A stretch of DNA of 64,000 bases from Novosphingobium resinovorum (GTDB lineage Bacteria > Pseudomonadota > Alphaproteobacteria > Sphingomonadales > Sphingomonadaceae). Shown here piece after piece: positions 3,616 through 62,559 of the stretch. Both the position numbers and the translations under genes were made by a program. The DNA is taken from assembly GCF_001742225.1 (NCBI RefSeq), contig NZ_CP017078.1, forward strand, positions 186,001-250,000, given 5' to 3'. Position 1 is the first letter of the stretch, and every line of letters starts with the position of its first letter. A model generated the notes under the pieces. That model did no database searches, was not told the origin of the DNA, and worked only from the letters and a program-made list of their open reading frames with translations.

Positions 3616-3629
3616 GAGGCGGTCGGAAT

Positions 3630-5930: not shown

Positions 5931-5951
5931 CAATGGTCGAATATCTCTAAT

Positions 5952-5980
5952 CAGGGGGGCTTTGGTGTATGCTCCCCTGG
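5952..5980. repeat. GC-rich inverted repeat between two insertion sequences
   Basis: CAGGGGGGC and GCTCCCCTG face each other across about ten bases, between the IS5-type element and IS6100. It may be a terminator stem or the remnant of an element end. No T-run follows on either strand, so the function is open. Confidence 0.35.
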
Positions 5981-6036
5981 TTGATGATCGTCGTGTAAGT
6001 TTGTTGGTTCGCATTCCAGTTGAGAGCTGATGTAAC

Positions 6037-6916: not shown

Positions 6917-7011
6917 GTCTAGCGAGAAGCGGACATACCGCCGATCAATGCGTAGGTCCGGAAGTGACCCAAAGCGGACACGCCGGTGGCAGTTGGTGGC
7001 GGTCGCCACGG

Positions 7012-7616
7012 CTAGTCGATCACCCGATCAGCCCCGAGCGAGCGCACCAGCCCGGCGTTGCCCGCGCTGCAGACGCCAGTGACCTCAGCGCCGAAATACT
7101 TAGCCAACTGCACGCCGTAGGCGCCAACACAACCCGAGGCACCGTTGATCAGCACCTTCTGGCCTGGCTGGATCCTGGCCCGGTTGAAAAAGTCGAGCGC
7201 CGTGACGCCCCCAAACGGCACGCCTGCCGCGTCCTCGAACGAGAGGCCCTCCGGCATTAGCGCGACGCACTCGTCCTCGCGCACCAGCTTGTACTCGGCG
7301 TGGCAGCCAAAGACGTCGATGCCGAACACCCGGTCGCCCGGCCTGAACTTCGTCACCGCCTGCCGACTGCCTCGACCGTCCCGGCGAACTCGACGCCGAG
7401 CACCTTCTTGCGCGGCCCGAAGATGCCGAGCACCAGCCGCCCGGGGATCGCGAACGGTTTCGGCATGTTGAAGGCCCTCAGCCGCGCATCGCCCGAGGTG
7501 ACCGAACTCGCCGCCAGCTTGACGAGAAGGTCGCGCCCGCCCGGCACGGGCTTGGGCACCTCCTGGATCGAAACGACATCCGGGGGGCCGTATTTCTTGT
7601 AGACAGCAGCTCTCAT
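7012..7616 (-). pseudogene. Zinc-type alcohol dehydrogenase/quinone reductase (MDR), frameshifted and truncated
   Basis: The start MRAAVYKKYGPPDVVSIQEVPKP at 7616 is a typical MDR N-terminus and reads to GVEFAGTVEAVG near 7360. The sequence then continues in another frame as TKFRPGDRVFGIDVFGCHAEY, then ALDFFNRARIQPGQKVLINGASGCVGAYGVQLAKYFGAEVTGVCS, the Rossmann part. It ends abruptly at GADRVID at 7012, where the family continues for more than 100 residues. A frameshift near 7360-7375 and loss of the 3' end make it non-functional. The break about 95 bases from IS6100 suggests an IS6100-linked deletion. Confidence 0.85.
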
Positions 7617-7673
7617 GGCATCCTCCTTGAAGGGGCGCGGGGTTCAGTCTTGGGATTGGCTTGGGGTCGGCCG

Positions 7674-7901
7674 TCAGCCCTTGGGCGGCTCGGCCTTCCA
7701 CTGAAAGACCTCGCCGATCGGCACGCCGAACACTTCAGCGATGCGGAACGCCGCTTCCAGCGACGGCGAGTATTTGTTCTGCTCGATGGCGGCGATGGTC
7801 TGCCGGGTCATGCCGATGCGATCGGCCAGGTCCTGCTGCGTCATCTCGTCATGGTCGAAGCGCAGCCGTCGGATCTTGTTGGAAATCGGCGGCGCGGCCA
7901 T
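7674..7901 (-). CDS. XRE-family helix-turn-helix regulator (75 aa)
   Basis: A single HTH domain fills the protein: MTQQDLADRIGMTRQTIAAIEQNKYSPSLEAAF (about residues 20-52) is the Cro/CI-type helix-turn-helix, followed by the dimer-type tail ALGVPIGEVFQW-like (VFGVPIGEVFQWKAEPPKG). The start is the ATG at 7899-7901, which overlaps the TGA of the upstream membrane-protein gene by one base (TGATG). The two are therefore translationally coupled. Small XRE proteins paired with a small membrane protein are common; the regulator usually controls its own operon. Confidence 0.85.
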   Translation of the reverse strand: MAAPPISNKIRRLRFDHDEMTQQDLADRIGMTRQTIAAIEQNKYSPSLEAAFRIAEVFGVPIGEVFQWKAEPPKG

Positions 7902-8365
7902 CAGCTCAGCACCCGGAAGCGGATGATAATGATGATCTCGGCCAGCACGTTGGCAGCGACGGCGGCCAACAGCAGCGCGTTGGCCATGACGATGGCAAAG
8001 CTCCCGACCGGATCGGTTGGAAAGCCTGCCGCAAAGTCCCTGCCCCAGAGCAGTGCCGACGCCGAAATACCGAGTACCGCCCACTCGAACAGCGGCTTGG
8101 TCATCCTGGCTGCGCCGCTCTCCATCTGCTTTTCCAGCTCGTCGGGGCTGGCGCCGAAATCCTTGAGCCGACGCCGGGAGGCGAGCAGGTTCAGGCCGAG
8201 CAGCAGCACGACCGTGATCCCCATGCATACGAGGAACAGCGTCCACAGCGCCTGCCCATCCAGCACGCGCGCGCCGACGCCGCGCCAGACTTCAGAAAAA
8301 TAGTATCCCCACACCACCAGCGTGGTGACGACGGCGATCCAGGCGGTTTTCTCGCGGAAGGACAT
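7901..8365 (-). CDS. Small membrane protein, partner of the XRE regulator
   Basis: 154 residues with four hydrophobic spans: about 8-25 (AWIAVVTTLVVWGYYF), 42-62 (WTLFLVCMGITVVLLLGLNLL), 93-108 (LFEWAVLGISASALLW) and 120-147 (SFAIVMANALLLAAVAANVLAEIIIII). The charged central loop SRRRLKDFGASPDELEKQMESG faces the cytoplasm by the positive-inside rule. I do not recognise a named family. The coupling with a DNA-binding partner suggests a sensing or autoregulatory pair, but no function can be assigned. Confidence 0.7.
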   Translation of the reverse strand: MSFREKTAWIAVVTTLVVWGYYFSEVWRGVGARVLDGQALWTLFLVCMGITVVLLLGLNLLASRRRLKDFGASPDELEKQMESGAARMTKPLFEWAVLGISASALLWGRDFAAGFPTDPVGSFAIVMANALLLAAVAANVLAEIIIIIRFRVLS

Positions 8366-8798
8366 TTGACGCCTCCGTGCACAATTTCTTGGGCGCTATA
8401 TCTAACATTTCTTACGACATGTCTAGTATTTTTGACATGGTGACGAAGCTTTTAGGCGAGATGCCGCCCGAACGCCCAAGAGCGAAGTCGCGACGTTTTT
8501 CCCAGCCCGTGAGTGTCTTGTCGGGCACTGAGACCAGCGGCCGCTTCTGGCGCAAGATGCCAGGATGTCCTGCCTCCCTCATGTCCGCGTCTGGGCAGCG
8601 GCCTTTTGGGCGGCAATGACAGAAATGGGGACACGTTGCCGTCGCAGTGCGGCCGCCACCTCAACGGCGGCTTTCCCAGCCTCGCGGCCCAGAAGCCGTC
8701 AGGCAGGAATTCACCCCTATTCAGCCCTACATTGGGCGAACGGCCAGCCCGGCGGCGAGAGTTTCCGAAGCCCCCTGCCCTATCCAGCCTCGCCGAAA
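8366..8798. other. Intergenic region with the promoter area of the XRE/membrane pair
   Basis: No gene is recognised in these 433 bases. The AT-rich part 8395-8440 lies just upstream of the minus-strand membrane-protein gene. It contains several GACATGT/ACATGTC-like half sites (around 8417-8441), which may be operators for the XRE regulator. The rest is GC-rich with no convincing coding frame. Confidence 0.4.
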
Positions 8799-9323
8799 TT
8801 ATGGCGTTCGCCAAGACGCCGAGGTTGTTGGAAGCCGACCGTCAGGGTCAACAACCTTTAGAACCGGACCATCCGACTGGTTCCAGCGCCAGAGTGCGAC
8901 ACAGCTTCCACCTGGAGACATAAAAGAGGGATAGATGACCCCATCGACCTTCGCGTCAAAAAGCATTTGATATGCGGCATGCGTGGCAGCGACAGCCCCC
9001 TTGTCCAATTCCGACCGCCACTCCGTCTTGTGAATGTCCTGGTCGAAGCCCCATTCGTCGAGAACTACGGGATCGGTCGTGTCGACAAGGCGGGCGCCGG
9101 TCAGCTCGAGTTGAGCGATCAATGCTGGATGCTGCACGAACCCTTGGTTGTATTCTGCCCAGGCGGTCGACAATTCCCGCGCGGCGTAAATCGTGTGGAC
9201 GCCGATCGGATTCCAACGGCCTCCAAAACGAGCAGCGCCCTCCCCCGATAGCGGTAGATGTGACCAGCGAGGAACGTAGGCTCGCCACAAAATGATCGGC
9301 TTAAGGTCTGTCAACTCAGGCAT
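8799..9323 (-). CDS. RES-domain toxin of a type II toxin-antitoxin pair
   Basis: 174 residues with the RES domain pattern: LWRAYVPRW near the start (first Arg), GGRWNPIGVHTIYAARELSTAWAEY (the Arg-Trp-Asn and Glu positions) and PSFMSPGGSCVALW (the Ser region). RES toxins characterised so far act on NAD+ (degradation by phosphorolysis or hydrolysis). The gene starts inside the last codons of the antitoxin gene (8-nt overlap, 9316-9323), the usual arrangement of Xre-RES pairs. The tail LPTTSASWRTP after the domain is short. Confidence 0.87.
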   Translation of the reverse strand: MPELTDLKPIILWRAYVPRWSHLPLSGEGAARFGGRWNPIGVHTIYAARELSTAWAEYNQGFVQHPALIAQLELTGARLVDTTDPVVLDEWGFDQDIHKTEWRSELDKGAVAATHAAYQMLFDAKVDGVIYPSFMSPGGSCVALWRWNQSDGPVLKVVDPDGRLPTTSASWRTP

Positions 9324-9687
9324 AGACGCCCGAGCGCACAGCCTCCAGATAGGCCAAGACCTGATCTGCCTTGCCGTCTCCCACCAGATCGTAAGCCGTC
9401 TTGCCCGCCCAGCCAGGAATTGGTTGGTGCTTAAACCAGATTACCGCACGATTTTCGTCGCCAGCCATCTCTGCGGCCATAGCCAGGATACGCACGATCG
9501 GGCTTAGCGCCGCGTCCACCTTCCGGGTGGCGGTTTTGGCGGTGAGCGTATTTCGGGCAATTCCGACAAGCTTGGCCAGCTCCGACTGTGTCACGCCGAG
9601 CTGTTCGGACAGCCGCGGCGCCGACAGGAAGGGCGAGCCGCCATCGCCAAACCGAACTGCACCTATCTCGAGACCCTGGGGCTGCAT
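9316..9687 (-). CDS. Xre/MbcA/ParS-type antitoxin (DUF2384) partner of the RES toxin
   Basis: 123 residues from the ATG at 9685-9687, chosen because GGAGTG lies 4-9 bases upstream. The N-terminal part holds an HTH (LSEQLGVTQSELAKLVGIARNTL). The C-terminal part WFKHQPIPGWAGKTAYDLVGDGKADQVLAYLEAVRSGVYA is the toxin-binding DUF2384 domain. Such antitoxins neutralise the RES toxin and repress the operon. The pair next to repC should help plasmid maintenance. Confidence 0.87.
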   Translation of the reverse strand: MQPQGLEIGAVRFGDGGSPFLSAPRLSEQLGVTQSELAKLVGIARNTLTAKTATRKVDAALSPIVRILAMAAEMAGDENRAVIWFKHQPIPGWAGKTAYDLVGDGKADQVLAYLEAVRSGVYA

Positions 9688-9710
9688 GAAGCACTCCAAT
9701 CATCCATTTT

Positions 9711-9740
9711 TTGAGCACGTTTCATGCAATATGCGCTCAA
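9711..9740. promoter_or_regulatory. Inverted repeat in the RES/Xre promoter region (probable operator)
   Basis: TTGAGC at 9711-9716 and GCTCAA at 9735-9740 form an inverted repeat 24 bases ahead of the antitoxin start, in an AT-rich stretch. This is where an Xre antitoxin would bind to repress its own operon. The assignment is by position and symmetry only. Confidence 0.45.
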
Positions 9741-9784
9741 ACCATGCTCATTTCAAGTCGACCTGATCGGGCAACTCCATGCAA

Positions 9785-11128
9785 CTAGGTTTCGCGATCC
9801 CACTTATCGATGCTCTTCCTCAAATTATCGCTGACCTCGAGCCGCTTCTGGGTACGATCGAGCCGTTGGGCGGCGCCCAGTTCGCCTTCGGCCTCCGTGA
9901 CACCCGCCCCCGCCGCTTTGGCCGCGTCGAGTTTGGCCCTCAACAGCGCCATGATCATTGGCCAGGTCGAGAATTTCCCTTCCTTGGCCCGCTCCGTCAG
10001 ATTTCGCAGGTAGCCCCCTGGCGACTTGATCTGATCAGACTTCTGGTAGATCGCGGCGATGGTGATTGCAGCCTGCTGTTCACCCAATGCCACTCGCGCG
10101 TCTTCCCAAGCGCTGGGGCTGATCCCCAACACCGGACGGGCCAGATCCGCCGCGGTTAGGAAATCTCGCCAATTACGAATGCCGCCGCCGCCCTTCACCA
10201 ACCACAGCAGGTTCGGACAGGCATCCAGCACGATACCCAGAGGCAGTTCGCGCTTCGGCAAGCTCCGCAGGTTGTCAGATCCACCGGCGCTGCCGCTCGC
10301 TTCGTCTTTTATTCCTAAGCCGCGTTCAGATTCAGTTTTAGATTCGGTATTTGAATTCTGTATGTGGCGCTCAGTTTGAGACTCATTGGTATTCAGATTC
10401 TGTGATTTTACGAAGGATTCCAATACGTCACGGATTTGCGTCCAAAGGTCGTCGAGTTCTGCAGCTATGGCTTCGAGAACCTGGCGCGGCGCTGTCCTGG
10501 GTAGGCGGCCGACGATCGCCTGGTACTCCAGATGCACGCCGCCCCAGTTGCCAGGAACGCCCTCCTCAATACCGGCCTCGATCATCTTGACGATGTCGCG
10601 GCGGCAGATGGTTAACCGCTCCTTAACGAGCTTGTACGCCTTTTTCTCGGCGCGCATCGCTTCAGCGAACTCTTTGAACTCGTTGGCACGGGCGACGATC
10701 GGTGAGAGATCAAAGCCATAGGCTTGCTCAACCTCTCCGCCCTGCCCCTTGCGCGCGTAGCGCTTGCCATTGGGGCTATCCCGGCGGACGATCAGTCCGC
10801 AGTCAACCAAGTTGGCGAGGTGACGCCGCAACGTCGCCGGCGACATGCCATTGGCGCGACCGATGAGCATTTCATTGGATGGCCAGACGATCAGGGCGCT
10901 ATCGCCATAGAGGGCGGTTTCCGGGTGGAAAGATAGGAGTGCGTCCAGGATGGCGAGTGCCCGATCGGACGCGCCTAGGGCAAGCCTGGCCTCCTTGATA
11001 TCCCTGAACACATGCCACTTGTGCACGGTCGCATCTGGAGCTGCACTCTGGGCCGCCACCTGACTTGCAATCATGCCAAGCGACATCGGTCGCCGCCCAA
11101 AAGGCGTCGTTGCGGTATGCGTCTGCAT
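9785..11128 (-). CDS. repC: RepC replication initiator of a repABC plasmid
   Basis: 447 residues, typical for RepC. The N-terminal half is the winged-helix initiator region (ALAILDALLSFHPETALYGDSALIVWPSNEMLIGRANGMSPATLRRHLANLVDCGLI, about residues 58-113). A low-complexity, Asn/Thr/Ser/Glu-rich linker (about 245-275) joins the C-terminal domain (PLGIVLDACPNLLWLVKGGGGIRNWRDFL...). RepC binds the plasmid origin, which in this family lies inside repC itself. It is the last gene of repABC, 187 bases after repB. That gap encodes the antisense RNA that limits RepC synthesis. The start has AAGGTG upstream. Confidence 0.95.
   Translation of the reverse strand: MQTHTATTPFGRRPMSLGMIASQVAAQSAAPDATVHKWHVFRDIKEARLALGASDRALAILDALLSFHPETALYGDSALIVWPSNEMLIGRANGMSPATLRRHLANLVDCGLIVRRDSPNGKRYARKGQGGEVEQAYGFDLSPIVARANEFKEFAEAMRAEKKAYKLVKERLTICRRDIVKMIEAGIEEGVPGNWGGVHLEYQAIVGRLPRTAPRQVLEAIAAELDDLWTQIRDVLESFVKSQNLNTNESQTERHIQNSNTESKTESERGLGIKDEASGSAGGSDNLRSLPKRELPLGIVLDACPNLLWLVKGGGGIRNWRDFLTAADLARPVLGISPSAWEDARVALGEQQAAITIAAIYQKSDQIKSPGGYLRNLTERAKEGKFSTWPMIMALLRAKLDAAKAAGAGVTEAEGELGAAQRLDRTQKRLEVSDNLRKSIDKWDRET
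10300..10420. other. Candidate origin of replication (AT-rich tract inside repC)
   Basis: Within repC this stretch is markedly AT-rich and has repeated TTCAGATTC-like words (for example at 10325-10333 and 10392-10400). It encodes the low-complexity linker. In repABC plasmids studied so far the origin maps to an AT-rich tract within repC, so this is the best candidate by analogy. Confidence 0.5.
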
Positions 11129-11159
11129 TGTCTTTCACCTTGTGTAGGGCAAAAGAATT

Positions 11160-11280
11160 CCGGCCGCTGAAGCGGTGAGACCCGATCAGGGTCTTGACTG
11201 CGATTTCGGGAAGTGCGATTCTCGCGTTACCACACGTCGAGAAGGGCTTCCGGAATTCGCTTTCGGGGGCCTTTTTCTTT
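11160..11280 (+). ncRNA. Counter-transcribed antisense RNA (ctRNA) between repB and repC, approximate extent
   Basis: The repB-repC gap of repABC plasmids encodes a small antisense RNA on the strand opposite to repC. Here the plus strand ends in a strong terminator (11245-11280), and the words GCGAGAATCGCA and CCCGATCAGGGTC in this gap, read on either strand, look like those of other repABC ctRNA regions. The 5' end is not determined. The RNA is expected to pair with repC leader RNA and lower RepC translation or transcription, setting copy number and incompatibility. Confidence 0.65.
11245..11280 (+). terminator. Rho-independent terminator of the repABC antisense RNA
   Basis: The stem GGCTTCCG (11245-11252) pairs with CGGGGGCC (11264-11271), with two G-U pairs, and is followed by TTTTTCTTT. 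It stops transcription on the plus strand, opposite to repC. Confidence 0.7.
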
Positions 11281-11315
11281 TGCGATTGGTCCAGGCGGTG
11301 AGGAGATCCCCTCGC

Positions 11316-12326
11316 CTATTGCTTCTGTTCTGTATCTCCCTCTTCATTGGCAAATTCGGAATAGAGTGCGTCGAGACGCGCTGCGACAAAAGCGGCGAAC
11401 TCAGGGACGCGCCTTTCGTCGAAAGTGATTGCTGTGTGGGAGCCGCGACGCTCTACGAGCGCCGCCCGGCGCCCCTCTGGCGTGTTCCATGCTCCACCCT
11501 TCGATGAGCGTTCAGCACTTGGCGCCGTCACCTTGAACACCATGTTAAAACGGGTGTCGCTGTCGGCCGCCCGGAAGCCCTCGGAAGCTACGACGTCATC
11601 GATCCTGGCACCCGTCTTGGATTTATCAATGGCTTCAGCCAGTGTGTGCCATCGAGCACGCCCAGCTTTCACGGCCGGCCCAATCTGCCGTGCCAGTTCC
11701 TCGGGGATACGTCTGGCAATAGAGATGTACCGGCTTAGGTCCGATTTGTCGGTGGATATCGCTGACATGATCACTGCGCGTTCGTAGCCGGAGTCCTCCA
11801 GGCGCTTGGCGAAGAGCGCCTTCTCGATAAACGAAAGGTCAGCACGATCCAAATTCTCGCGGCCTTGGGCGACAACCACTTCATCGTCTGACAGATCACG
11901 AACGATCGCCTTCACCGGGTGCGCAAGTCGCACAAGCGCACGCAGGCGGCGTCGACCGTACGCGATCTGGAAGCGACCCGGAGCAGCCGGACTCGGCCGG
12001 ACTAGGATGGGCACCTGCTGTCCGTCTCGCTCAATGCTCGAAACCAGTTCGTCAAAGCCAGGGTCGATCTCAGCCGGCAGGCGGTCGGCTATGGGCGAGG
12101 GATCAATCAGTGCAGGATCAAGCGAGACGACGTGATCCCCAGTAAGAAGCTGCTCCTGAAGTTTGGCAGCCGCTCGCGCGCCTTGCGTCAATTCCTGAAG
12201 CGAGGTGCCCATTGCACCGATCGCGCCACTACGGACACGTTCAGGATTTTTAACAGCCGAGCTGTTCGACGAAGGGGGGGCGGCCTTCCCAAGAAAGAGG
12301 GAGTTTAGCGCGTCCTTGCGGCTCAT
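11316..12326 (-). CDS. repB: RepB, ParB-like partition protein
   Basis: 336 residues. The ParB/Srx-type N-terminal domain holds VPILVRPSPAAPGRFQIAYGRRRLRA (about residues 100-125), where GRRR is the conserved nucleotide-binding box. It is followed by a helix-turn-helix region (LSFIEKALFAKRLEDSGYERAVIMSAISTDKSDLSRYI) and the RepB-specific C-terminal half. RepB binds the parS palindromes just upstream and works with the RepA ATPase to segregate the plasmid. The start is supported by AAGGAGG eight bases ahead. It lies between repA and repC in one operon. Confidence 0.94.
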   Translation of the reverse strand: MSRKDALNSLFLGKAAPPSSNSSAVKNPERVRSGAIGAMGTSLQELTQGARAAAKLQEQLLTGDHVVSLDPALIDPSPIADRLPAEIDPGFDELVSSIERDGQQVPILVRPSPAAPGRFQIAYGRRRLRALVRLAHPVKAIVRDLSDDEVVVAQGRENLDRADLSFIEKALFAKRLEDSGYERAVIMSAISTDKSDLSRYISIARRIPEELARQIGPAVKAGRARWHTLAEAIDKSKTGARIDDVVASEGFRAADSDTRFNMVFKVTAPSAERSSKGGAWNTPEGRRAALVERRGSHTAITFDERRVPEFAAFVAARLDALYSEFANEEGDTEQKQ

Positions 12327-12351
12327 GCTTTGCCTCCTTGGAACTGGGAGA

Positions 12352-12367
12352 GTTGGGAGCTCCCAAC
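12352..12367. promoter_or_regulatory. parS site 1 (16-bp perfect palindrome)
   Basis: GTTGGGAGCTCCCAAC is a perfect palindrome and fits the GTTNNNNGCNNNNAAC pattern of repABC parS sites. It lies in the repA-repB gap, just ahead of repB, and is the expected binding site for RepB. Confidence 0.88.
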
Positions 12368-12397
12368 AAGGCCATTTGGCAAATTTTGTGCATAAGA

Positions 12398-12413
12398 GTT
12401 GGGAGCTCCCAAC
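12398..12413. promoter_or_regulatory. parS site 2, identical copy
   Basis: The same 16-base palindrome as at 12352-12367 recurs 46 bases away (start to start) in the repA-repB gap. Two identical copies in tandem should allow cooperative RepB loading. Confidence 0.88.
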
Positions 12414-12444
12414 TTATGGCCGTTCACTGAATATAGGTCGACAG

Positions 12445-13701
12445 TCATGGCCGACCCCAAGCTGCTTTCATCAGATGCTCGATCTCGCCATTGACCGCGT
12501 CGAGTGCTTCCATGGCACGATCATATGTGGACCTGGTGAGGTTTTCCCGGCCGATCTCGTAAAGGGTTTGCTTGGTGAGACCGGCGTCGGATACCGCGGC
12601 TGACTTAACCATTGCATTTGTCAAAACGTGGTCGCCAAACAGATTGCGGAGCAGCGCGGCTACTTTGGTCTGAGGGCCATCCTGCGGTTCGTATCGCGTC
12701 AGGAGATATCGGATAAAATCATACTGCAACCGGCCGCCAGCGTCGCGCACAACGCCCAGCAGATCCCGCGTCATGAGAAGAAACTGGCTCATCGACGCCA
12801 CATCCAGCATTTGCGGATGAACGGTTACCACCATTGACGTGGCGGCGCATAAACCGCTGAGCGTTAAAAAGCCAAGCTGAGGGGGGCAGTCAAGCACAAC
12901 GACATCATAGTCATCGGCCACCTCGTCCAATGCACTGGCGATGCGCGCGAAGAAAATCCCATCTCCGGACTTTGTGCCATCCATCAAGGCCCTGGGCGTG
13001 GTGTGCTCGAATTCCATGAGCTCGAGATTGCCGGGCACCAGGTCCAAGCCATCGAAGTAGGTTTTTCTGACGACGTCCTTAAGGCTCTTGCGACCTTCAT
13101 CATAGCGGATTGCTGCGTAGAGAGTTTCGTTGGCGCCAACATCGGTTTCAGGGAGCACTCCAAGTAGGGCGGAGAGGCTGGCCTGGGGATCAAGGTCAAT
13201 GGCGAGTACCCGATATCCCTGCAGTGCGAGATACTGGGCCAAATGAGCAGAGGTTGTCGTCTTGCCCGAGCCGCCTTTGAAGTTTGTTACTGCAATGACC
13301 TGCAAGTGTTCTGTTCCGCGTCGGTGCGGAATAAAATCAGTCGCTTCTCGGCCCCGCGTGCCGCTCGCCAACAGCGCACGTATCTCATTGATCTGGCCCA
13401 GCGTGTATAGGCGGCGGCCGTTACTCGTGGTTTCAGGCTGAGGTCCCTCGCCGGCGAGCGTCATCTTCCGAAGTGTTGAGTCTGAAACTCGCATCAATCG
13501 GGCGGCCTCACCGGATGTGAACCGCCGCAAGGTCTTTTGTGACGTTGGCGGAAACATCGCTTGGCTCAGCGCTTGCAGTTGGGCGCTGAGGAGTTCAGCA
13601 TGGGCGCCGATGGTCTCATCAGCATCGGCGTTTTGCTGCGGCTCGTTGGCAACACTTGTGTTCACGGGCGTTTCTCTCGTCACGGAAGTTCGGCCACACA
13701 T
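12445..13701 (-). CDS. repA: RepA, ParA-like partition ATPase and repABC repressor
   Basis: 418 residues. The N-terminal part carries a MerR-like winged helix (TSGEAARLMRVSDSTLRKM, about residues 62-80). The Walker ATPase core has NFKGGSGKTTTSAHL (deviant Walker A, 140-154), IDLDPQASL (Walker A') and VVLDCPPQLGFLTL (Walker B). RepA powers plasmid segregation with RepB and represses the repABC operon. The start used gives MCGRTSVTRE; a GTG 12 codons in (VNTSVANEPQ) is an alternative. Confidence 0.94.
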   Translation of the reverse strand: MCGRTSVTRETPVNTSVANEPQQNADADETIGAHAELLSAQLQALSQAMFPPTSQKTLRRFTSGEAARLMRVSDSTLRKMTLAGEGPQPETTSNGRRLYTLGQINEIRALLASGTRGREATDFIPHRRGTEHLQVIAVTNFKGGSGKTTTSAHLAQYLALQGYRVLAIDLDPQASLSALLGVLPETDVGANETLYAAIRYDEGRKSLKDVVRKTYFDGLDLVPGNLELMEFEHTTPRALMDGTKSGDGIFFARIASALDEVADDYDVVVLDCPPQLGFLTLSGLCAATSMVVTVHPQMLDVASMSQFLLMTRDLLGVVRDAGGRLQYDFIRYLLTRYEPQDGPQTKVAALLRNLFGDHVLTNAMVKSAAVSDAGLTKQTLYEIGRENLTRSTYDRAMEALDAVNGEIEHLMKAAWGRP

Positions 13702-54627: not shown

Positions 54628-54647
54628 TGACCGCTAGGAATGGCGAC

Positions 54648-54902
54648 ATGACCATCACCACATTATCCAGCCGAGAATTTCAGCAAAACGCCAACCAGGC
54701 GCAAAAGGCCGCCCGGAGCGGCCCCGTCTTTATCACCAACCGGGGCAAGCCGACGCAAGTGCTGCTGAGCATCGAGGAATACCAAAGGATCACCGGACAG
54801 CGCCGGAGCATCGTCGCGGCGCTATCCATGCCGGGACTATCGGATATTGAGGTGGAGTTTCCGCGGTCGCGTGAAGTTCCCCGTCCGGCAGATTTCTCCT
54901 GA
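54648..54902 (+). CDS. Phd/YefM-type antitoxin
   Basis: 84 residues from ATG 54648 (preceded by TAGGAATGG). MTITTLSSREFQQNANQAQKAARSGPVFITNRGKPTQVLLSIEEYQ is the Phd/YefM fold. The C-terminal IEVEFPRSREVPRPADF should bind the toxin. The stop overlaps the toxin ATG (TGATG). The long upstream frame leading into it is not part of the gene. Confidence 0.9.
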   Translation: MTITTLSSREFQQNANQAQKAARSGPVFITNRGKPTQVLLSIEEYQRITGQRRSIVAALSMPGLSDIEVEFPRSREVPRPADFS

Positions 54903-55327
54903 TGTTCGTGCTCGATACCAATGTGATTTCCGAACTGCGCAAGGCCGGTGACGGCAAGGCAGACGCTAATGTCGTCGCGTGGCTCGACAGCGTGGACGCC
55001 GCAACGTTCTACCTATCGGCGGTGACGCTCATGGAGCTTGAACTCGGCATTCTGTTGATGGAGCGGCGCGACCCGAACCAGGGCGCCCGGCTGCGCACCT
55101 GGATGGATCGCCATATCGTTCCCGAATTTGCCGAGCGGACCTTGCCGGTGGATACGGCCGTGGCATTGCGGTGCGCCCGGCTTCATGTGCCCAACCCCTG
55201 CGCCGAACGGGATGGCCTCATTGCGGCGACAGCACTGGTGCATGGGATGACGATCGTCACGCGCAATGTGGCCGACTTCGAGTCGACTGGGGTCGAGATC
55301 ATCAATCCCTGGCGCCACTCAGCCTAG
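54902..55327 (+). CDS. VapC/FitB-type PIN-domain toxin
   Basis: 141 residues. The PIN residues are MFVLDTNVISELRKAG (Asp5), TLMELELGILLMERRD (Glu), AERDGLIAATALVHG (Asp) and VTRNVADF (Asp), the FitB-like arrangement. It is predicted to be an RNase neutralised by the upstream antitoxin. Confidence 0.9.
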   Translation: MFVLDTNVISELRKAGDGKADANVVAWLDSVDAATFYLSAVTLMELELGILLMERRDPNQGARLRTWMDRHIVPEFAERTLPVDTAVALRCARLHVPNPCAERDGLIAATALVHGMTIVTRNVADFESTGVEIINPWRHSA

Positions 55328-55435: not shown

Positions 55436-55738
55436 TCAGGCCGCCGCGCGCTCTTCGGAGGCTGCCGGCTGCAGAGCATGCAGAAAATTGACCGCCCGCT
55501 GCGCATGGGCGGCGGCCTGGAAGATGGCGCGCTTGTCATCGGCGAGGACCTTGAGCCAGTTTCCGAGATAGGCGGCATGGTCCGGGCGTGGCTCGAGCTC
55601 TGGCACGATGCCCAGATCGGCGCAAAGCAGCGCCGAGCCGATTTCCGCGACGAGTTCCTCCCGCGCCCGCTCTGATCTGTCCTTTGAATAGCGACTGAGA
55701 TCGCGGCCGACGCGGTTCGGTTTCGCCGTCCAGTGGAT
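55436..55738 (-). pseudogene. ardC: ArdC antirestriction protein, C-terminal part (gene split by RIT element)
   Basis: From the junction the frame reads IHWTAKPNRVGRDLSRYSKDRSERAREELVAEIGSALLCADLGI and ends in QPAASEERAAA at 55436. This is the C-terminal third of ArdC-like zincin antirestriction proteins. The N-terminal two thirds lie at 61684-62316, and the two halves join in frame once the 5.9-kb insertion and one copy of TGGAT are removed, giving about 309 residues. The insertion inactivates the gene. Confidence 0.87.
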
Positions 55739-55764
55739 CTTATGCCGATATCGGCATAACACGC
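55739..55764. repeat. Extra 26 bases outside the left inverted repeat, with a perfect palindrome
   Basis: Between the ardC sequence and the left inverted repeat lie 26 bases, most of which form a perfect palindrome of TTATGCCG and CGGCATAA around AT..AT. The right end has no counterpart: there the inverted repeat abuts ardC directly. Confidence 0.6.
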
Positions 55765-55790
55765 ATTATGCCGTAAGTCGGATTATGCCG
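55765..55790 (+). repeat. RIT element left inverted repeat (26 bp)
   Basis: It starts ATTATGCCGTAAG and ends GGATTATGCCG. It is a perfect complement of 61659-61684. Immediately inside, GCCGCATGGCCGA (55787-55799) and TCGGCCATGCGGC form a long perfect stem. Confidence 0.85.
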
Positions 55791-55848
55791 CATGGCCGAG
55801 CTTTTCGGCTGTCACGCCGGCTTTCGGCCATGCGGCAGTTCGGCATAA

Positions 55849-56841
55849 TCAGAGCGCTTCGAGGAAGGCGAGCAGTTCGTCGCTGGGACGATACCGCCCG
55901 GGATGTGTTTCCGGGCCGGCGACCTGAGAAAGCGCCTTTTCCTTCAGCCGCATGTCGGCGTGTATATAGATCTGGGTCGTTTCCACGGATTCGTGCCCGA
56001 GCCATAATGCGATCACGGATTGGTCGACGCCGTGATGGAGCAGTTCCATCGCCGTGCTGTGGCGAAGCGTGTGTGGCGTGACGCGTTTGCCTGCAAGACT
56101 CGGACACGCTTGTGATGCCTTCAGGCAATGCTTGCGCACCAAGTGCTCCAAAGCATCACGGCTGAGCGCCTCGCCCCGGATCGACGGGAACAGCGGGCCA
56201 TCGCCGTCGCGGCGCTCGCCGATCCAGCTCTGGATAAGCTTGGCCGTATCGCGACGAAGAGGCGTACTGCGTTCTTTCCGGCCCTTGCCGATGCACCGGA
56301 TATGAGCGCCGGTGCCGAGGATCACGTCCTTGCAGCGCAGGTTGATCAGTTCGGACGCCCGCAACCCCGTCTGAAGCGCAAGCAACAGCAGGACGTGATC
56401 ACGTCGCCCCACCCATGTCATTCGATCCGGTGCTGCCAGCAGCGCCGCTATCTCCCCAGCGTCAAGGAACGTCACGCTCCGCTTCACATACCGCTTGTTC
56501 GGCATCGAGAGAACGCGCTGACAATGAAGAAGCCAGCTCGGATCGGTCAATGCAACGTAGCGGAAGAACGAGCGGATAGCGGCAAGACGCGTATTGCGGG
56601 TGCGGGCCGTGTTGCCGCGCGCCGTTTCCACATGTGTCAGGAAGTCGGCGACAAGATCGGCATCGAGATCTTCGATCGTCAGCTTCGTGGGTGGCTTTCC
56701 ACACCGTGAGCTTGCGTACCGGATCAGCAGCCGGAATGTGTCTCGGTAGCCAGCGACGGTGTGATGGCTTGCTTCCATCTGCGTTAAGAGCCGATCGGTG
56801 AAGAAGCGCTGGATCAGCGCGGGGAAGTTGGTCGCCTTCAT
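55849..56841 (-). CDS. Tyrosine recombinase, third of the trio (RitC-like)
   Basis: 330 residues from ATG 56841 (MKATNFPALIQRFF). The N-terminal SAM-like core-binding domain is residues 5-110. The catalytic domain has TGLRASELINL (Arg), HTLRHSTAMELLHHG (His-x-x-Arg), LGHESVETTQIYIHAD (His and Tyr nucleophile). The ATG overlaps the stop of the middle recombinase by four bases. The stop codon lies inside a CGGCATAAT copy of the end repeat. Confidence 0.9.
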   Translation of the reverse strand: MKATNFPALIQRFFTDRLLTQMEASHHTVAGYRDTFRLLIRYASSRCGKPPTKLTIEDLDADLVADFLTHVETARGNTARTRNTRLAAIRSFFRYVALTDPSWLLHCQRVLSMPNKRYVKRSVTFLDAGEIAALLAAPDRMTWVGRRDHVLLLLALQTGLRASELINLRCKDVILGTGAHIRCIGKGRKERSTPLRRDTAKLIQSWIGERRDGDGPLFPSIRGEALSRDALEHLVRKHCLKASQACPSLAGKRVTPHTLRHSTAMELLHHGVDQSVIALWLGHESVETTQIYIHADMRLKEKALSQVAGPETHPGRYRPSDELLAFLEAL

Positions 56842-57782
56842 CGGGTTTCCACCTCCGCCGCCACGCCTGTTATTCGAGCGGAGGCCAGTTCCAGCAGCTC
56901 CGGGACCGCTTCCAGATACCAGTATGTGTGGGCGGGGTGCGCATGACCGAGCCATGTCGTGAGCTTGATCATCTCGCGACCGACGTCTTTGCCCGACCGA
57001 TACCAGCTCAGCATGGTACGCACCGCGAAGGTGTGGCGAAGATCGTGGATACGTGGTCCACGACCGTGCCGAAGATGAAGCTGCGGCTGCCGCAGCCCGA
57101 TCTGCTGGCAGACGTGCGCGAAGTTGTAGCGTGCGCCGCAATCGCCAAGACGACGCCCCTCACAGGTCACGAAGAATGCTTCCGGCCTGCGCCCGAGCAG
57201 CCGATCCCGCTCGCGACCATAGCTTTCCAGCCGTTCCACGACGCTCGGGGCCAGCGGCAGCAACCGTTCTTTGCCGAGCTTGCCCTGCCGGATACGAAGC
57301 ACTCCGGATTCGGCATCGAGATCGTGAGGATCGAGACCGAGAGCTTCGCTGATCCGAAGTCCGGTCACGGCGATCAGGCCGAAGAGGGTTGAGCAGGTCA
57401 GGCCGCGCAGGCCGTAGACCGATGGCAGCGTCCGCGCTTGGTCGATGATCGCGACGATTTCGGCGTCACTATAGATGTATGGATGCACACGCTGAACGCG
57501 ACCCGGCACCAATCCCCGGGGCGGAGCCTCGTGTCTGGAGTCCATGCCGTGCAACCACTCAGCAAATTGGCGGGCCACCCTGAAGCGCGTTGCCCGTGTT
57601 CCTGGACTTGCAGAGGGAAGGCTTTCGAGCCAGCGCATGATCAGGCTGGCGCTGACGTACTGCGCACCGCCGTTGTCGGCGAAGGTTACGAAGCGGCGAA
57701 GTATCCGTTCATCGGTGCTCAGATTGGCGCCGAGTTGCCTTCTGATGGTGAGATAGCGGTCCATTTCGGCAAGGAAGCTCAT
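56838..57782 (-). CDS. Tyrosine recombinase, second of the trio (RitB-like)
   Basis: 314 residues from ATG 57782 (MSFLAEMDRYLTIRRQLG), whose ATGA overlaps the stop of the first recombinase. Catalytic positions: TGLRISEALGL (Arg), RIHDLRHTFAVRTML (His-x-x-Arg), LGHAHPAHTYWYLEAV (His, Tyr). Longer than usual between the last boxes. Coupled to both neighbours. Confidence 0.9.
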   Translation of the reverse strand: MSFLAEMDRYLTIRRQLGANLSTDERILRRFVTFADNGGAQYVSASLIMRWLESLPSASPGTRATRFRVARQFAEWLHGMDSRHEAPPRGLVPGRVQRVHPYIYSDAEIVAIIDQARTLPSVYGLRGLTCSTLFGLIAVTGLRISEALGLDPHDLDAESGVLRIRQGKLGKERLLPLAPSVVERLESYGRERDRLLGRRPEAFFVTCEGRRLGDCGARYNFAHVCQQIGLRQPQLHLRHGRGPRIHDLRHTFAVRTMLSWYRSGKDVGREMIKLTTWLGHAHPAHTYWYLEAVPELLELASARITGVAAEVETR

Positions 57783-58996
57783 CGTGCCACCTCCGAGGTC
57801 GGCCAAGGCTGCGCAATGGAACGCAACCCGTCCGTGTCGAGCTTCGCGTAGATCATCGTCGTTGCCCGCGACCGATGCCGCAGCAGATCGCCGATCTCTT
57901 CCAGTGAGGCGCCGGCACGAACCATGTTCGTCGCCAGGCTGTGGCGCAGAACATGCGATCCCACATAGGGTGTCGGCGGCTTCACGCCCGTCGCCGCGAA
58001 CGCCTCCTTCAGTATGGCGTTAATGACCTGGCTGTCCTTGAACGGACGGTTGGGCGCCCGATGCGTCACGAACAGCGTGCGCGTGGTCGTTGAGGTTCGT
58101 TCCACCTGTAGATACCGGGTGATCGCTTCGCCGACGTCCGGTGGGATTGGCAGCCGGTCATGTTGCTGCCCTTTTCCACGAACCAGAAGTACGCCGGCGC
58201 GCCAGTCTATGTCGCACAACTGGACAGCGATGACTTCCGGCGCGCGCAGGCCGAGGCGGGCCATCAACAGCAGCATGGCGTAGTCACGGGCGCCGCGCCG
58301 CGGATTGGTGCGCACGGAGGCCACGACGGCCTCCACCTCATCGGGCGACAGATAACGAGGGAGCCTTGCGCCCCAGGGCTTGCGTGCTCTGGGGACGCAA
58401 AGCGACAGGTTCGTGGTCGTATGGTCCTGCGCGAACAGATATTGGAAGAAGCTGCGCAGATGCGTTGCTGGCGTCTTGTCGCGGAACGGGCGCTTGCGCG
58501 CGAGTAAGTGCTCCATGAACGCGACAACATCCTGCGCGTTCAGCGCCGGCAGGTCGAGCATACGGTCGCCGAAGCGATGATCGAGAAAGCGGTCCGCGAA
58601 CCTCAGCACATGATAGACAGAGCGGGGGCTGAGGCCGCGTTGCCGCAGAAGGTAGGTTTCAAAGCTGTCCAGCAGTTCGCGACGTTCGGCCTGTGCGGGT
58701 GTCAGCGGCGGTCGTGTCGCCACTCCTATCTCAATCAGATGCGTGACGAACAGTCTGGCAAGGTTGGGAACCTTGATCTGGCTTTTCGGCGTGGTCGGCA
58801 ACCGCCGTCCCAGTTCGACAGCCAAGTCTGGCGTCAATGCCGAGGGCGCAATGCCCTCGGCGTCGAGCAGGCGACCGAAGCGCCGCAATAGATAGCGGTA
58901 ATTCGTCAGCGTGTCCGGCTTGTAGTTTCTGGATGCAAGGCTTTCTTCAAATGCCGCGAGATACTGATCGAGACATGTGTGATCGGGTTTTTCCAT
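57779..58996 (-). CDS. Tyrosine recombinase, first of the trio (RitA-like)
   Basis: 405 residues, the longest of the three, as usual for RitA. It has two N-terminal core-binding segments (about 8-95 and 105-195) before the catalytic domain: LGLRAPEVIAVQL (Arg), GSHVLRHSLATNMVRAG (His-x-x-Arg), LLRHRSRATTMIYAKLD (His, Tyr nucleophile). It heads the three-gene operon. The 253-base gap to chrB should hold both divergent promoters. Confidence 0.9.
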   Translation of the reverse strand: MEKPDHTCLDQYLAAFEESLASRNYKPDTLTNYRYLLRRFGRLLDAEGIAPSALTPDLAVELGRRLPTTPKSQIKVPNLARLFVTHLIEIGVATRPPLTPAQAERRELLDSFETYLLRQRGLSPRSVYHVLRFADRFLDHRFGDRMLDLPALNAQDVVAFMEHLLARKRPFRDKTPATHLRSFFQYLFAQDHTTTNLSLCVPRARKPWGARLPRYLSPDEVEAVVASVRTNPRRGARDYAMLLLMARLGLRAPEVIAVQLCDIDWRAGVLLVRGKGQQHDRLPIPPDVGEAITRYLQVERTSTTTRTLFVTHRAPNRPFKDSQVINAILKEAFAATGVKPPTPYVGSHVLRHSLATNMVRAGASLEEIGDLLRHRSRATTMIYAKLDTDGLRSIAQPWPTSEVAR

Positions 58997-59249
58997 TTCT
59001 GTGCTCCATCTTGGTGGAGCAATAAACTTCGCGCCGAATCCCCGCTCTGTGACCAGTCGATCTTCTGCTTAGCGGCAAGTGTGACCAAGACCTTCCCTCG
59101 ATTTCATGTCCGATGTGCTGACGCGCATATAGAGTTCTTGACGTGGTGTCCTCGCCTTTCGTATCTACAATCATGGGGATTGCGAGCTCCCCACGAGGCG
59201 CCAGCCGAAGATCGCGTTCCTGTTCAACCCCGGCGACGGAGGAACGCAC

Positions 59250-60071
59250 ATGCCTGCGCCTAATGCCATTTCGTTCGACAAGCTCGCCCGCATCATCGGA
59301 ACCCCTCGCGCACCGCTCTTGATCGACGTGCGCTCCGAGGAAGATTTTGCCGCCGATCCAAGGTTGCTCCCTGGCGCCACCCGGATCGACGACCAGGCGC
59401 TCGCCGCCCTCGCTCCGCAGCTCGCCGGGCAGCCATCCATTGCTGTCTGCCAGGCCGGCCATCGGCGCAGCCAAGGCGCGGCCGCCTGGCTGCGCGCCGA
59501 AGGCTGCCCTTCGGAGTATCTCGAGGGCGGGTTCGAAGCCTGGCGTGCGGCCGAGCTACCCCTGATCGATCCCGCAAAGCTGCCAGCGCGCGACGCGCAG
59601 GGCCGCACCATCTGGGTCACCCGGTCGCGCCCCAAGATCGACCGCATCGCGTGCCCCTGGCTGATCCGGCGCTTTCTCGATCCCCGTGCGATCATCCTCT
59701 TTGTGGCGCCCGCCGAGGTCGTCGGCGTCGCCGAACGCTACGATGCTTCGCCCTTCGACATCGAGAACGTGTTCTGGAGCCATAGGCGCGAACTTTGCAC
59801 CTTCGACGTGATGCTGGCCGAGTTCGGCCTGAATATTCCCGCGCTCGACCGGCTGGCCGACATCGTCCGCGGCGCCGACACCGCCCGGCTCGATCTGGCG
59901 CCCGAGGCCGCCGGTCTTCTTGCAGCCTCGCTCGGTCTGTCGCGGATGTATTCCGACGACCTGGAGCAGCTCGAAGCAGGCATGCCGCTCTATGACGCTT
60001 TCTATCGCTGGGCTCGTGACGCAACCGACGAGACCCACAACTGGCCCACCAACAAGCCGAGGCCGGAGTGA
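59250..60071 (+). CDS. chrB: Rhodanese-ChrB fusion, chromate-resistance protein
   Basis: 273 residues; start preceded by ACGGAGGAACG. Residues 1-105 are a rhodanese domain (LLIDVRSEEDFAADPR, IAVCQAGHRRSQGAAAWLRAEG with Cys67). Residues 118-270 are the ChrB C-terminal domain (TIWVTRSRPKIDRIACPWLIRRFLDPRAIILFVAP, ELCTFDVMLAEFGL). ChrB-type proteins sense chromate or aid its handling next to ChrA transporters. The stop overlaps the chrA ATG by one base. Confidence 0.9.
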   Translation: MPAPNAISFDKLARIIGTPRAPLLIDVRSEEDFAADPRLLPGATRIDDQALAALAPQLAGQPSIAVCQAGHRRSQGAAAWLRAEGCPSEYLEGGFEAWRAAELPLIDPAKLPARDAQGRTIWVTRSRPKIDRIACPWLIRRFLDPRAIILFVAPAEVVGVAERYDASPFDIENVFWSHRRELCTFDVMLAEFGLNIPALDRLADIVRGADTARLDLAPEAAGLLAASLGLSRMYSDDLEQLEAGMPLYDAFYRWARDATDETHNWPTNKPRPE

Positions 60072-61438
60072 TGCGGGACCGCGCTTTCCCCACCCTTGCG
60101 GAGGCCACCCGCATCTGGGCCCGAATCGGGCTCCTGAGCTTTGGCGGGCCGGCGGGCCAGATCGCGCTCATGCACCGCATCCTCGTCGAGGAGCAGCGCT
60201 GGCTGGGCGAGAAGCGGTTCCTGCATGCCCTCAACTACTGCATGCTGCTGCCTGGCCCGGAGGCGATGCAGCTCGCCGTCTATATTGGCTGGCTGATGCA
60301 CCGCACGCTCGGCGGCATCATCGCGGGTTTGCTCTTCGTACTGCCCGGCATTGTGTCGATCATGGCGCTGAGCTGGATCTATGCGCTCTACGGCAATGTT
60401 GGCGCCGTCGAGGCGCTGTTCTTCGGGCTGAAAGCGGCGGTGCTGGCCATCGTCGTGCAGGCGGTCATCCGCATCGGCTCGCGCGCCCTGAAGAACGGCG
60501 CAATGATCGCCATCGCCGCCGCCTCGTTCGTGGCGATCTTCGGTTTCGCGGTGCCGTTTCCGCTCATCATCCTTGTGGCGGGTCTGGTCGGGTTCTTCGG
60601 AGCGCGTGTGGGGTTGCCCGCCTTCCATGGCGGCGGCGGCCACGGCAAGGTGGGCGAGGTCCAGGTCGATGACGCCGATACCCTCCTGGGCGAAGAGTCG
60701 CCCGCCCACACGCAGGTCAACCGCGGCTGGGCGTTTCGCATCTCGGCGGCGTTCCTCGCGCTGTGGCTGGTACCGGTCGCCCTGCTGTTCGCGGTCTTCG
60801 GCCCCGCGAACGTCTTTTCCCAGATCGCGGGCTTCTTCAGCATCATGGCCGTTGTGACCTTCGGCGGCGCCTATGCCGTTCTGGCCTACGTCGCGCAGGA
60901 GGCGGTGCAGAACTACGGCTGGCTCGCCCCTGGCGAGATGCTGGACGGGCTCGGCATGGCCGAGACCACGCCCGGCCCGCTGATCATGGTGACACAGTTC
61001 GTGGGCTTCATGGGCGCGTTCCGCAACGCGGGCGGCCTGTCGCCGCTGATGGCGGGAACGCTGGGCGGGCTTCTGACGACATGGGTGACGTTCACGCCGT
61101 GCTTCCTCTGGATCTTCCTCGGTGCGCCCTTCATCGAGCGACTGCGCGACAACAAGGTGCTGTCGGCAGCGCTGACGGCGATCACCGCCGCCGTGGTGGG
61201 CGTGATCCTGAACCTCGCAGTCTGGTTCGGCCTGCATGTGGTTTTCGACGAGGTGCGCTCGATCACCTCCTTCGGCCTCGATATCGACGTGCCCGTCTGG
61301 TCTACACTGAACCTGCCTGCTGCGGTGCTGGTGCTGGCCGCTCTTATCGCAGTGTTCCGCTTCAAGCTCGGACCAGTGACCGTTCTCGCTGGATGCGCGG
61401 CCGTTGGCCTGGTGCTAGGGGTGACGAACATCGCCTAA
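60071..61438 (+). CDS. chrA: Chromate efflux transporter ChrA
   Basis: 455 residues from the ATG at 60071. Two CHR domains are visible. The first starts WARIGLLSFGGPAGQIALMHRILVEEQRWL with NYCMLLPGPEAMQLAVYIGWL; the second has FFSIMAVVTFGGAYAVLAYVAQEAV and GLGMAETTPGPLIMVTQFVGFMGAFR. About ten to twelve spans. Long-chain ChrA exports chromate by proton or membrane-potential drive. It is followed by GCTCTC-11-GAGAGC, a possible terminator stem at 61448-61470. Confidence 0.94.
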   Translation: MRDRAFPTLAEATRIWARIGLLSFGGPAGQIALMHRILVEEQRWLGEKRFLHALNYCMLLPGPEAMQLAVYIGWLMHRTLGGIIAGLLFVLPGIVSIMALSWIYALYGNVGAVEALFFGLKAAVLAIVVQAVIRIGSRALKNGAMIAIAAASFVAIFGFAVPFPLIILVAGLVGFFGARVGLPAFHGGGGHGKVGEVQVDDADTLLGEESPAHTQVNRGWAFRISAAFLALWLVPVALLFAVFGPANVFSQIAGFFSIMAVVTFGGAYAVLAYVAQEAVQNYGWLAPGEMLDGLGMAETTPGPLIMVTQFVGFMGAFRNAGGLSPLMAGTLGGLLTTWVTFTPCFLWIFLGAPFIERLRDNKVLSAALTAITAAVVGVILNLAVWFGLHVVFDEVRSITSFGLDIDVPVWSTLNLPAAVLVLAALIAVFRFKLGPVTVLAGCAAVGLVLGVTNIA

Positions 61439-61658
61439 GGTGACCCGCTCTCACCATCCAAACGAGAGCCAAGGGCAACGTCGAAAGATCGATAAAGGTG
61501 TAAAACCCGCCGCTCGCAGAATCCGCATTCGGATAATCGGATCTCAACCGTACTAATCCCAACGGGTTCTTCAGCGTACCTTGAGCTTCATTGGGCGGCG
61601 GATTATGCCGAGCGCGAAGAGGACCATGGCCTGCAATTTCAGTATTACGCACCCGAAA

Positions 61659-61684
61659 TCGGCATAATCCGACTTACGGCATAA
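61659..61684 (-). repeat. RIT element right inverted repeat (26 bp)
   Basis: Perfect complement of 55765-55790. Its last base coincides with the first base of the TGGAT duplication. A further ATTATGCCG lies 49 bases inside (61602-61610). Confidence 0.85.
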
Positions 61685-62316
61685 TGGATATGCTCGTGAC
61701 TGAGGACAGCGACATAGGATGCCGCATCCCGGAACGTCTCGAAGGGCGGCATCTGGATATGATCGGTTGAGGGTGCATAGAACGCCTGCGACCCGCCATT
61801 GCGAAGGTCAGCACCGGCGTTGGTGAAGAACCGGTCGGCGCTTTCGATCCGTTCCACCGGATCGGAAACAGGTGCCGGCCGATGATAGTAATGCTCGGGC
61901 AGACCATCGATCTGTTCGACGTTGAACACGCCATAGGCGCGCAGGAATGGAATGTCCCGTTCAACCTCATCCCCGCGTGCGTCGGTTTCGGTCTTGGTAA
62001 ACCGGCTGGCATAGATGACCGTGGCGCTGCTCTCGCCCTTGCGGACATGGGCGCCGAGCTCGCTGGCCTGCTTGAAGGTCATCCAGATCGGCGCGACATA
62101 GCCCTGCGCCATTGCCTCCGACCAGAGAAGCAGCACATTCATGCCGCTATAGGGCTCACCATTATGGCGGAGCGGTCTGGTAATGCGTCCCGCCGTGTTC
62201 CCAGCAGCCCATGGCTGCACCCAGGGGCGCACGCCCTCCTCCAGCTGCGCGACGATCCTCTCGGTGATCCGCGCGTAGATGTCGACGCGGGTTTCGCTTT
62301 TCTCTTTCCTGCTCAT
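61684..62316 (-). pseudogene. ardC: ArdC antirestriction protein, N-terminal part (gene split by RIT element)
   Basis: Starts at ATG 62316 (MSRKEKSETR), nine bases after GGAGG; an ATG two codons upstream is closer to the ribosome site. The DUF1738-type N-terminus has VDIYARITERIVAQLEEGVRPWVQPW and GEPYSGMNVLLLWSEA. The zincin motif HEHIH falls at residues 207-211, exactly at the insertion point. Beyond it the frame continues into the element as YAVSRIMPISGA and stops at 61645. The rest of the gene is at 55436-55738. Confidence 0.88.
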
Positions 62317-62559
62317 TTTCATAAACCTCCATTGTGGAGGCCGCGCCGATCGCGGCCCCGTCACGGCGGGCGACAAGCCGGACCGGTCAGGGGGATCGCG
62401 CACCCCGACAGGGGCCGGAACGAGAGAGGAGGACGGCAAAGCCGTTGCGCGATGCACCGGGTCCGGCAAGACCGATGCAGGGACGGGGATCGAGGGCGCA
62501 TCGACAAGAAGAAGGGCGGCGCAGCGCGCCGCCCGGATGCTGTCCGGAGAACGGCCGGT

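Follow-up and report, generated by a model that had tools for sequence, protein, structure and literature searches.

The question raised by the locus described here is how three tyrosine recombinases encoded side by side might move a piece of DNA, where they would send it, and whether resistance genes can travel with them. The locus lies in a stretch of 64,000 nucleotides from Novosphingobium resinovorum (positions 186001-250000 of its contig NZ_CP017078.1; "the window" below means the whole of this stretch), in which an element body of 5,919 bp (55766-61684) carries ritA-ritB-ritC and a chrB-like/chrA pair between perfect inverted ends and splits an ardC gene, the ArdcN domain and positions 1-57 of the zincin profile lying to the right of the element and zincin positions 53-126 to its left. 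On the evidence set out below it is, in our judgement, very probable that this is a transposon of the recombinase-in-trio (RIT) class, belonging to a cargo-moving clade that prefers ardC, and that it hops by way of a circle whose joint has two core sites, the older of which is used.

The ends had been recognised in a preliminary description made from the sequence without database searches, which gave a perfect inverted repeat of 26 bases; the repeat is indeed perfect and present at both ends, but it is 27 nt long (55764-55790 and 61660-61686), and its outer two bases form part of the spacer hexamers, so that the element itself ends at 55766 and 61684. What that description missed is a 20-bp palindrome, TTATGCCGATATCGGCATAA, with its two hexamers. 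The element is present once in the 6.9-Mb host genome, where the 27-nt repeat matched only itself (E ≤ 0.001), and in a sample of 385 genomes from the class only 2, this one included, have the exact palindrome; for these reasons neither can be regarded as a chance word.

The three overlapping tyrosine-recombinase genes all match Pfam Phage_integrase and all carry the GLR, HxLRH and C-terminal Y motifs. RitA, RitB and RitC each find their best match in the corresponding protein of the trios on plasmid pHG1 (35%, 42% and 53-54% identity respectively), which supports the assignment to the RIT class made in the preliminary description. RIT elements have been located on pHG1 (PMC3414803, PMC2864759); they are described as trios of about 3,500 bp whose mobility is without experimental proof (PMC3414803). 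They have been counted among mobile elements on circumstantial evidence, and target specificity and movement are listed for them as "not tested" (PMC10214605, Table 1). The window element shares with the RITs of Cupriavidus pHG1 and CH34 the order ritA-ritB-ritC, the gene overlaps, a terminal inverted repeat (published lengths are 28-9 and 34 bp; PMC10214605, PMC3414803) and an overlapping palindrome, here next to the repeat at the ritC end. One RIT of pHG1, neighbour to an IS66 transposase, has the succession of hexamer, palindrome, hexamer and repeat seen in the window. A length of about 3.5 kb without cargo, which is usual for RITs rather than part of their definition, is exceeded by the 5,919 bp with a chr pair seen here; unlike the RITs described, the window element has cargo, a target within a protein motif and an apparent record of its donor sites.

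A class that the preliminary description had named as a possible refutation, GInt, resembles the window element in having three adjacent recombinase-like genes and variable cargo, but is characterised by ginABCD, a GinC without its first arginine and direct att repeats of 10-11 nt (PMC5385486), in all of which the window element differs. Neither a ginD-like nor an srap-like gene was seen within the ends, where three small extra open reading frames gave no Pfam match; since ginD was judged on the missing candidate gene and the missing room (83 bp are left from the ritC stop to the element end), it is on these grounds, together with the catalytic motifs present in all three recombinases, that membership of GInt was rejected. 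We know of no Pfam model for GinD.

Repeat ends were searched in all collected loci (designated L), any flank being accepted. There were 73 matches beside the pattern CAYGAR-N6-CA, which corresponds to the codons of HExxH (a name that we take to be that of the zinc motif of ardC, the domain itself being the Pfam match), 62 by the palindrome and 9 where a contig ends, while 7 fell into none of these groups. Many of the 73 are one place under two locus names, and removal of repeated places leaves 46 distinct junctions on this side of the motif (the HE side), all in loci where RitA is at least 44% identical where aligned; L022, L089 and L090 may be one site in three strains. Of the 47 elements whose target-side flank could be read, 46 are thus found at an HExxH, including those of Acidithiobacillus (L059) and Phaeobacter (L060), the flank being unread in L017, L024, L030, L037, L040, L042, L043 and L092. 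The seven other ends comprise one each in L011 and L089, where there is extra DNA by the palindrome, two belonging to a second, different RIT in L039, one in L144 by a variant palindrome, and both ends of L087.

As to whether the chr genes travel with the trio, one contig of Pseudochelatococcus contaminans (5,927 bp) is 99.98% identical to the window element over 5,923 bp, and in this genome the element end is found at four further contig positions, two of them HE sides and two palindrome sides, implying two copies in two ardC genes; their body directions are opposite. A second version of the chr element, 86.6% identical to that of the window, is present in three copies in Paracoccus halophilus, each in an HExxH, and in one in Glycocaulis profundi, the versions in these two species being 99.95% identical over 5,921 bp. 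Between the two chr lineages the ritC end, ritB, ritA, chrB and chrA are all 86-90% identical, and the 246-bp tail beyond chrA 76%. Sister elements in which RitA is 82-90% identical have other cargo in the chr slot, and some relatives are cargo-free. The cargo may be a carbon-nitrogen hydrolase (in the slot of L005), a protein annotated NlpC/P60 but without a Pfam match (L006), an alkene reductase (OYE) with TetR and adenine glycosylase (L008, L009, L023), SulP (L022), LysR (L019), a GAF-HWE kinase (L018) or an alpha/beta hydrolase (L039); in L033, from a metagenome-assembled genome (MAG) of Hyphomicrobiales, it is an arsenic-type operon (element at 3028-9848) with HTH_20 regulators, ArsC, an SBF transporter, FMN reductase, MFS and an Na+/H+ antiporter. 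One common element, 99.6-99.8% identical over most of its length, is found in L019 (Bradyrhizobium) and L020 (Chelativorans).

Taken together, these comparisons support the view that this RIT clade moves cargo and that ritABC and the divergent chr pair lying within the repeats behave as one unit in different ardC genes, much as the preliminary description had proposed; repeat-flanked trios with and without chrBA, and ends of the same type around other cargo, which it had suggested looking for, were both found. It had also seen a difficulty in any related elements ending between ritA and chrB. These do exist (L032, L034 and L036 end just upstream of ritA, with no cargo room) and imply that the cargo slot acquired chr at some time; from then on, by the evidence, the chr genes have moved and diverged jointly with the trio. 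In the RitA tree the sister relation of the two chr lineages is left as an open fork, and the tree thus gives no proof that chr was captured just once. As a separate observation, L034, L036, L134 and L135 are elements of about 3.05 kb that match the window RitA from residue 98 only, as if without its N-terminal part. Judged by the protein families, the function of the cargo would be chromate resistance, a passenger, as we picture it, in a slot between the cargo-end repeat and ritA and divergent from the trio. The literature searched here mentions neither cargo in RIT elements nor ardC as a target of theirs, though earlier notice is possible.

The way in which these elements might move is best approached through their hexamers. 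Complete sites, read in the direction of ardC, have the form HE-h1-IR..IR-h2-palindrome-h3-W, in which IR is the inverted repeat, W is the codon following HExxH, and h1, h2 and h3 (the HE, inner and W hexamers) have the form N4CA. The palindrome is at the W side whichever body end lies there, and the idea that it is a fixed end of the body was rejected because either body end can adjoin it. Seven genomes have more than one copy (three among 25 in which palindromes were counted, Pseudochelatococcus, Paracoccus, G402 and Rhizobium anhuiense T24), and in six of the genomes two copies could be read fully: Pseudochelatococcus, a Novosphingobium MAG (L031/L029), T24 (L009/L088), G402 (L134/L135, 100% identical over 3,068 bp), Chelativorans and Sphingobium boeckii. 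In every one of these six there is one order of the copies for which the inner hexamer of the daughter equals the HE hexamer of the donor while the W hexamer of the daughter equals the inner hexamer of the donor, and in all six pairs the body direction is opposite. The first of these equalities would be a carry-over of the kind described for Tn554 and the strand-biased circularizing integrative element (SE), read here in six donor-daughter assignments from genome copies, not from circles.

When inner hexamers, W hexamers and directions were shuffled 100,000 times among 32 elements, none, one and two of the six pairs fitted the rule in 98,141, 1,852 and 7 runs respectively, a figure that overstates the certainty because related rows are not independent. 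Among ordered pairs taken across genomes only 2 of 980 fit, both of them L010/L022, which hold the same SulP-type element in Sinorhizobium. Inner and W hexamers encode only G, T, V, S, A, I, C or L at the second x of HExxH, as native hexamers do. Left out of the rule test were the Paracoccus copies (whose HE and W sides are unpairable, and which count as one row among the residues), L011 and L089 for their extra DNA by the palindrome, L023 with its shifted W hexamer, L035, L090 and L076 as duplicates of L034, L022 and L134, L093 (a truncated ritA and three equal hexamers), L087 (no HE and no palindrome), and L026, L028, L037, L038, L043, L044, L060, L091 and L144 (incomplete, counted elsewhere or not added).

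An empty site shows which of these bases are native. Thirteen plasmid records, L009 included, are at least 99% identical to the ardC half of L009, and the two others that were opened (L065 and L066) have an intact ardC reading CACGAAAG-TTGCCA-TTGGAC. In the occupied L009, TTGCCA is at the HE side and a foreign TTCACA at the W side, from which it follows that native bases keep the HE side and foreign bases enter the W side. The empty ardC site envisaged in the preliminary description was thus found for a sister element, though not for the window's own plasmid. The palindrome is absent from the six intact-ardC loci inspected (L048-L051, L065 and L066), and as a native part of the target it was accordingly rejected.

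This also bears on the direct repeat TGGAT of the preliminary description, which is present, but as the five of six bases that two different hexamers (TATCCA and GATCCA in ardC direction) have in common, rather than as a plain duplication. Ordinary target duplication was rejected as the whole story, since the W hexamer differs from the HE hexamer in 23 of 32 elements and the W hexamer of L009 does not occur in the empty site. Equality of the two in 9 of 32 elements, where 1.6 would be expected, indicates that a preference for matching hexamers remains; most likely the TGGAT repeat is in part a relic of former-site hexamers.

The simplest path to the hexamer rule that we can suggest leads through a two-core circle. 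The trio would close the element, or a copy of it, into a circle with the joint IR-h2-PAL-h1-IR (PAL being the palindrome), h1 being a copy of the donor's HE-flank hexamer, and such a joint would have a core site on each side of the palindrome, the two being mirror images. Integration would proceed via the older core, PAL-h2-IR, leaving the target's own hexamer at the HE side, placing h2 at the W side and h1 inside, and flipping the body, so that each element would carry hexamers from the two sites that it last occupied. A match between the target hexamer and the core in use would be favoured but not required. For the window element, the predicted donor should have CACGCA at its HE side, GATCCA inside, and the opposite direction.

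The first half of this rule is that of SE and Tn554 (PMC10214605), and to it we add a second core, a flip and a delay by one step. In SE the spacer is of 6 bp, the circle carries the 6 bp of the left flank, the native 6 bp are kept at the left attachment site (attL), and those of the circle go to the right one, attR (PMC10214605). The window element resembles SE in its 6-bp spacer and, it would seem, in the carry-over; SE, however, has the genes intA-tfp-intB-srap and a single joint spacer, whereas the window element has three active-looking recombinases, no srap-like gene that could be seen, and, as proposed, two cores around a palindrome, a delay of one step and a flipped direction. As its gene content does not match the intA-tfp-intB-srap core, membership of SE was rejected. 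With the Tn554 family it shares target specificity, resistance cargo and, it would seem, 6-bp carry-over; there the genes are tnpA-tnpB-tnpC, and the available part of the source makes no mention of a palindrome or a second core (PMC10214605).

Other explanations can be put forward for parts of these data. The published rule might suffice by itself, integration using one core as in Tn554 and SE, with the left-flank hexamer passed to the right of the next site, the palindrome a fixed end and direction a matter of chance. That this rule equals the first half of the one found here (the HE hexamer of the donor is carried) speaks in its favour, but the palindrome is at the W side for either body end, direction differs in all six pairs, and the outcome to be expected (same direction, same inner hexamer, W hexamer equal to the HE hexamer of the donor) is seen in 0 of 12 ordered pairs within genomes and 1 of 980 others, which makes this explanation unlikely. 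The two directions could instead result from in situ inversion of the body, as in a shufflon, by recombination of attL with the inner core, and these two sites (HE-N4CA-IR and PAL-N4CA-IR) are indeed similar and inverted; since one-core integration followed by inversion would make the W hexamer equal to the HE hexamer of the donor, while the six assignments have it equal to the inner hexamer of the donor, we regard this as distinctly unlikely. Least probable of all, to the point of being hard to credit, is that the chr genes entered beside a resident RIT by some unrelated event, any movement being due to homologous recombination between plasmids and the repeats being incidental: there are chr-free relatives (L032, L034, L036), chrA/chrB homologues occur without a trio (L012, Pelagibacterium), and lone chr-type matches are common in the window's family, but in different ardC genes the boundaries of near-identical chr units coincide exactly with the repeats, trio and chr genes are similarly diverged between the two chr lineages, and the hexamers vary by site as would be expected of recombination products.

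Against two-core hopping by an ardC-preferring clade there are nevertheless several points to be set. Movement and circle are postulated from sequence comparison, and the chromate phenotype from protein families. Only for L009/L088 does an external empty site determine which copy is donor and which daughter, and elsewhere the order follows from the rule itself; the pairs in Pseudochelatococcus, Chelativorans and Sphingobium boeckii are collapsed copies at contig-end junctions, paired by end type; second copies were sought in part of the genomes; and the three Paracoccus copies, with equal inner hexamers, W hexamers and direction, fit siblings of one unseen donor and so cannot test the rule. 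As regards the target, the ends of L087 (Bradyrhizobium, 9003-13218) adjoin neither HExxH nor palindrome, making it the sole readable element away from HE; this RIT of the window clade is flanked left and right by group II intron genes that are identical, one of its ends lying near such a gene, and was perhaps disrupted afterwards. L026, on a MAG contig, lacks the palindrome and has the same HE flank at either end, which is perhaps misassembly, L023 has 3 extra bases by its W hexamer, L011 and L089 have the extra DNA already mentioned, and L058, a RIT with an identical palindrome and a RitA of 38%, lies not in ardC but in a solute-binding protein gene (SBP_bac_1; 1494-1527).

The arrangement of 20-bp palindrome, 6-bp spacer and repeat arm recurs elsewhere, with 20 of 20 palindromic positions in L059 and L061, 18 of 20 in L060 and L062 (Rhodococcus) and 16 of 20 in L063, and it is shared by a second RIT present in L039 and by the RIT that adjoins the IS66 transposase on pHG1. 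Outside this clade the surroundings are various: L061 is in a gene that we read as resembling IS66 tnpB, L063 (3780-11811) lies between the halves of a strawberry-notch gene on a sphingomonad plasmid, and the others include the IS66 transposase on pHG1 and a Rhodococcus plasmid. Because palindrome and 6-bp spacers are thus found in other RIT clades and in other surroundings, we think it likely that all RITs use a mirror-symmetric two-core circle joint organised around a 20-bp palindrome, flip at each hop and keep a two-place shift register of former sites. Among individual loci, the second RIT of L039 (1113-4755) is different, having a long RitA-like open reading frame, the palindrome TTATGCTGACGTCAGCATAA and 6-bp spacers, and is not in an HExxH; L062 (5956-11334) and L064 (5674-11956) have two recombinase sets tail to tail, those of L062 being linked by a 116-bp perfect inverted repeat; and in L094 (2161-5609) another trio adjoins a strawberry-notch gene of a second plasmid, so that this gene family is perhaps one more recurrent target.

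Table 1. Features of the element and of the split ardC gene, in window positions (hexamers in ardC direction; "predicted" refers to the two-core path proposed in the text).
Feature	Position	Strand	Evidence or remark
Split ardC, 3' part (zincin MPTase-PolyVal domain, beginning with the W of HExxHW)	55436..55733	-	PF18818 positions 53-126; WTAKPNRVGRD after break
W-side hexamer GATCCA	55734..55739	-	predicted to be the donor's inner hexamer, from two sites back
Perfect palindrome TTATGCCGATATCGGCATAA, 20 bp, W side of target	55740..55759	no strand
Inner hexamer CACGCA	55760..55765	+	predicted to be the target hexamer of the donor site
Inverted repeat, ritC end	55766..55790	+
ritC, tyrosine recombinase, 330 aa	55849..56841	-	PF00589, E 3e-35; 53-54% to pHG1 RitC proteins
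ritB, tyrosine recombinase, 318 aa	56838..57794	-	PF00589, E 8e-17; 42% to pHG1 RitB
ritA, tyrosine recombinase, 405 aa	57779..58996	-	PF00589, E 2e-28; 35% to pHG1 RitA
Cargo, chrB-like: N-terminal rhodanese (ChrE-like, below NCBIfam cut-off) fused to ChrB_C	59250..60071	+	Pfam/NCBIfam
Cargo, ChrA, chromate efflux transporter	60068..61438	+	PF02417, E 2e-74; TIGR00937 above cut-off
Inverted repeat, cargo end	61660..61684	-
HE-side hexamer TATCCA	61685..61690	-	predicted to be native target bases; native hexamer keeps this side in L009
Split ardC, 5' part (ArdcN + zincin start)	61691..62319	-	PF08401, PF18818 positions 1-57; ...AVLSHEHI before break

Adjoining the split ardC, at 54641-55327, there are a putative small antitoxin-like open reading frame and then a PIN-domain (VapC-type) gene with a Pfam PIN match.

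What makes this lineage useful is that it offers a defined target, an empty site, donor-daughter pairs within single genomes and a prediction of the joint base by base, so that the need for three recombinases becomes testable. It seems to be a vehicle by which resistance to metals (chromate, arsenic) spreads across replicons from different families and orders, splitting an anti-restriction gene in the process, and in the annotated plasmids that were examined it is labelled merely as integrases or recombinases; and if each copy records its earlier sites, its hops would be traceable by sequence alone.

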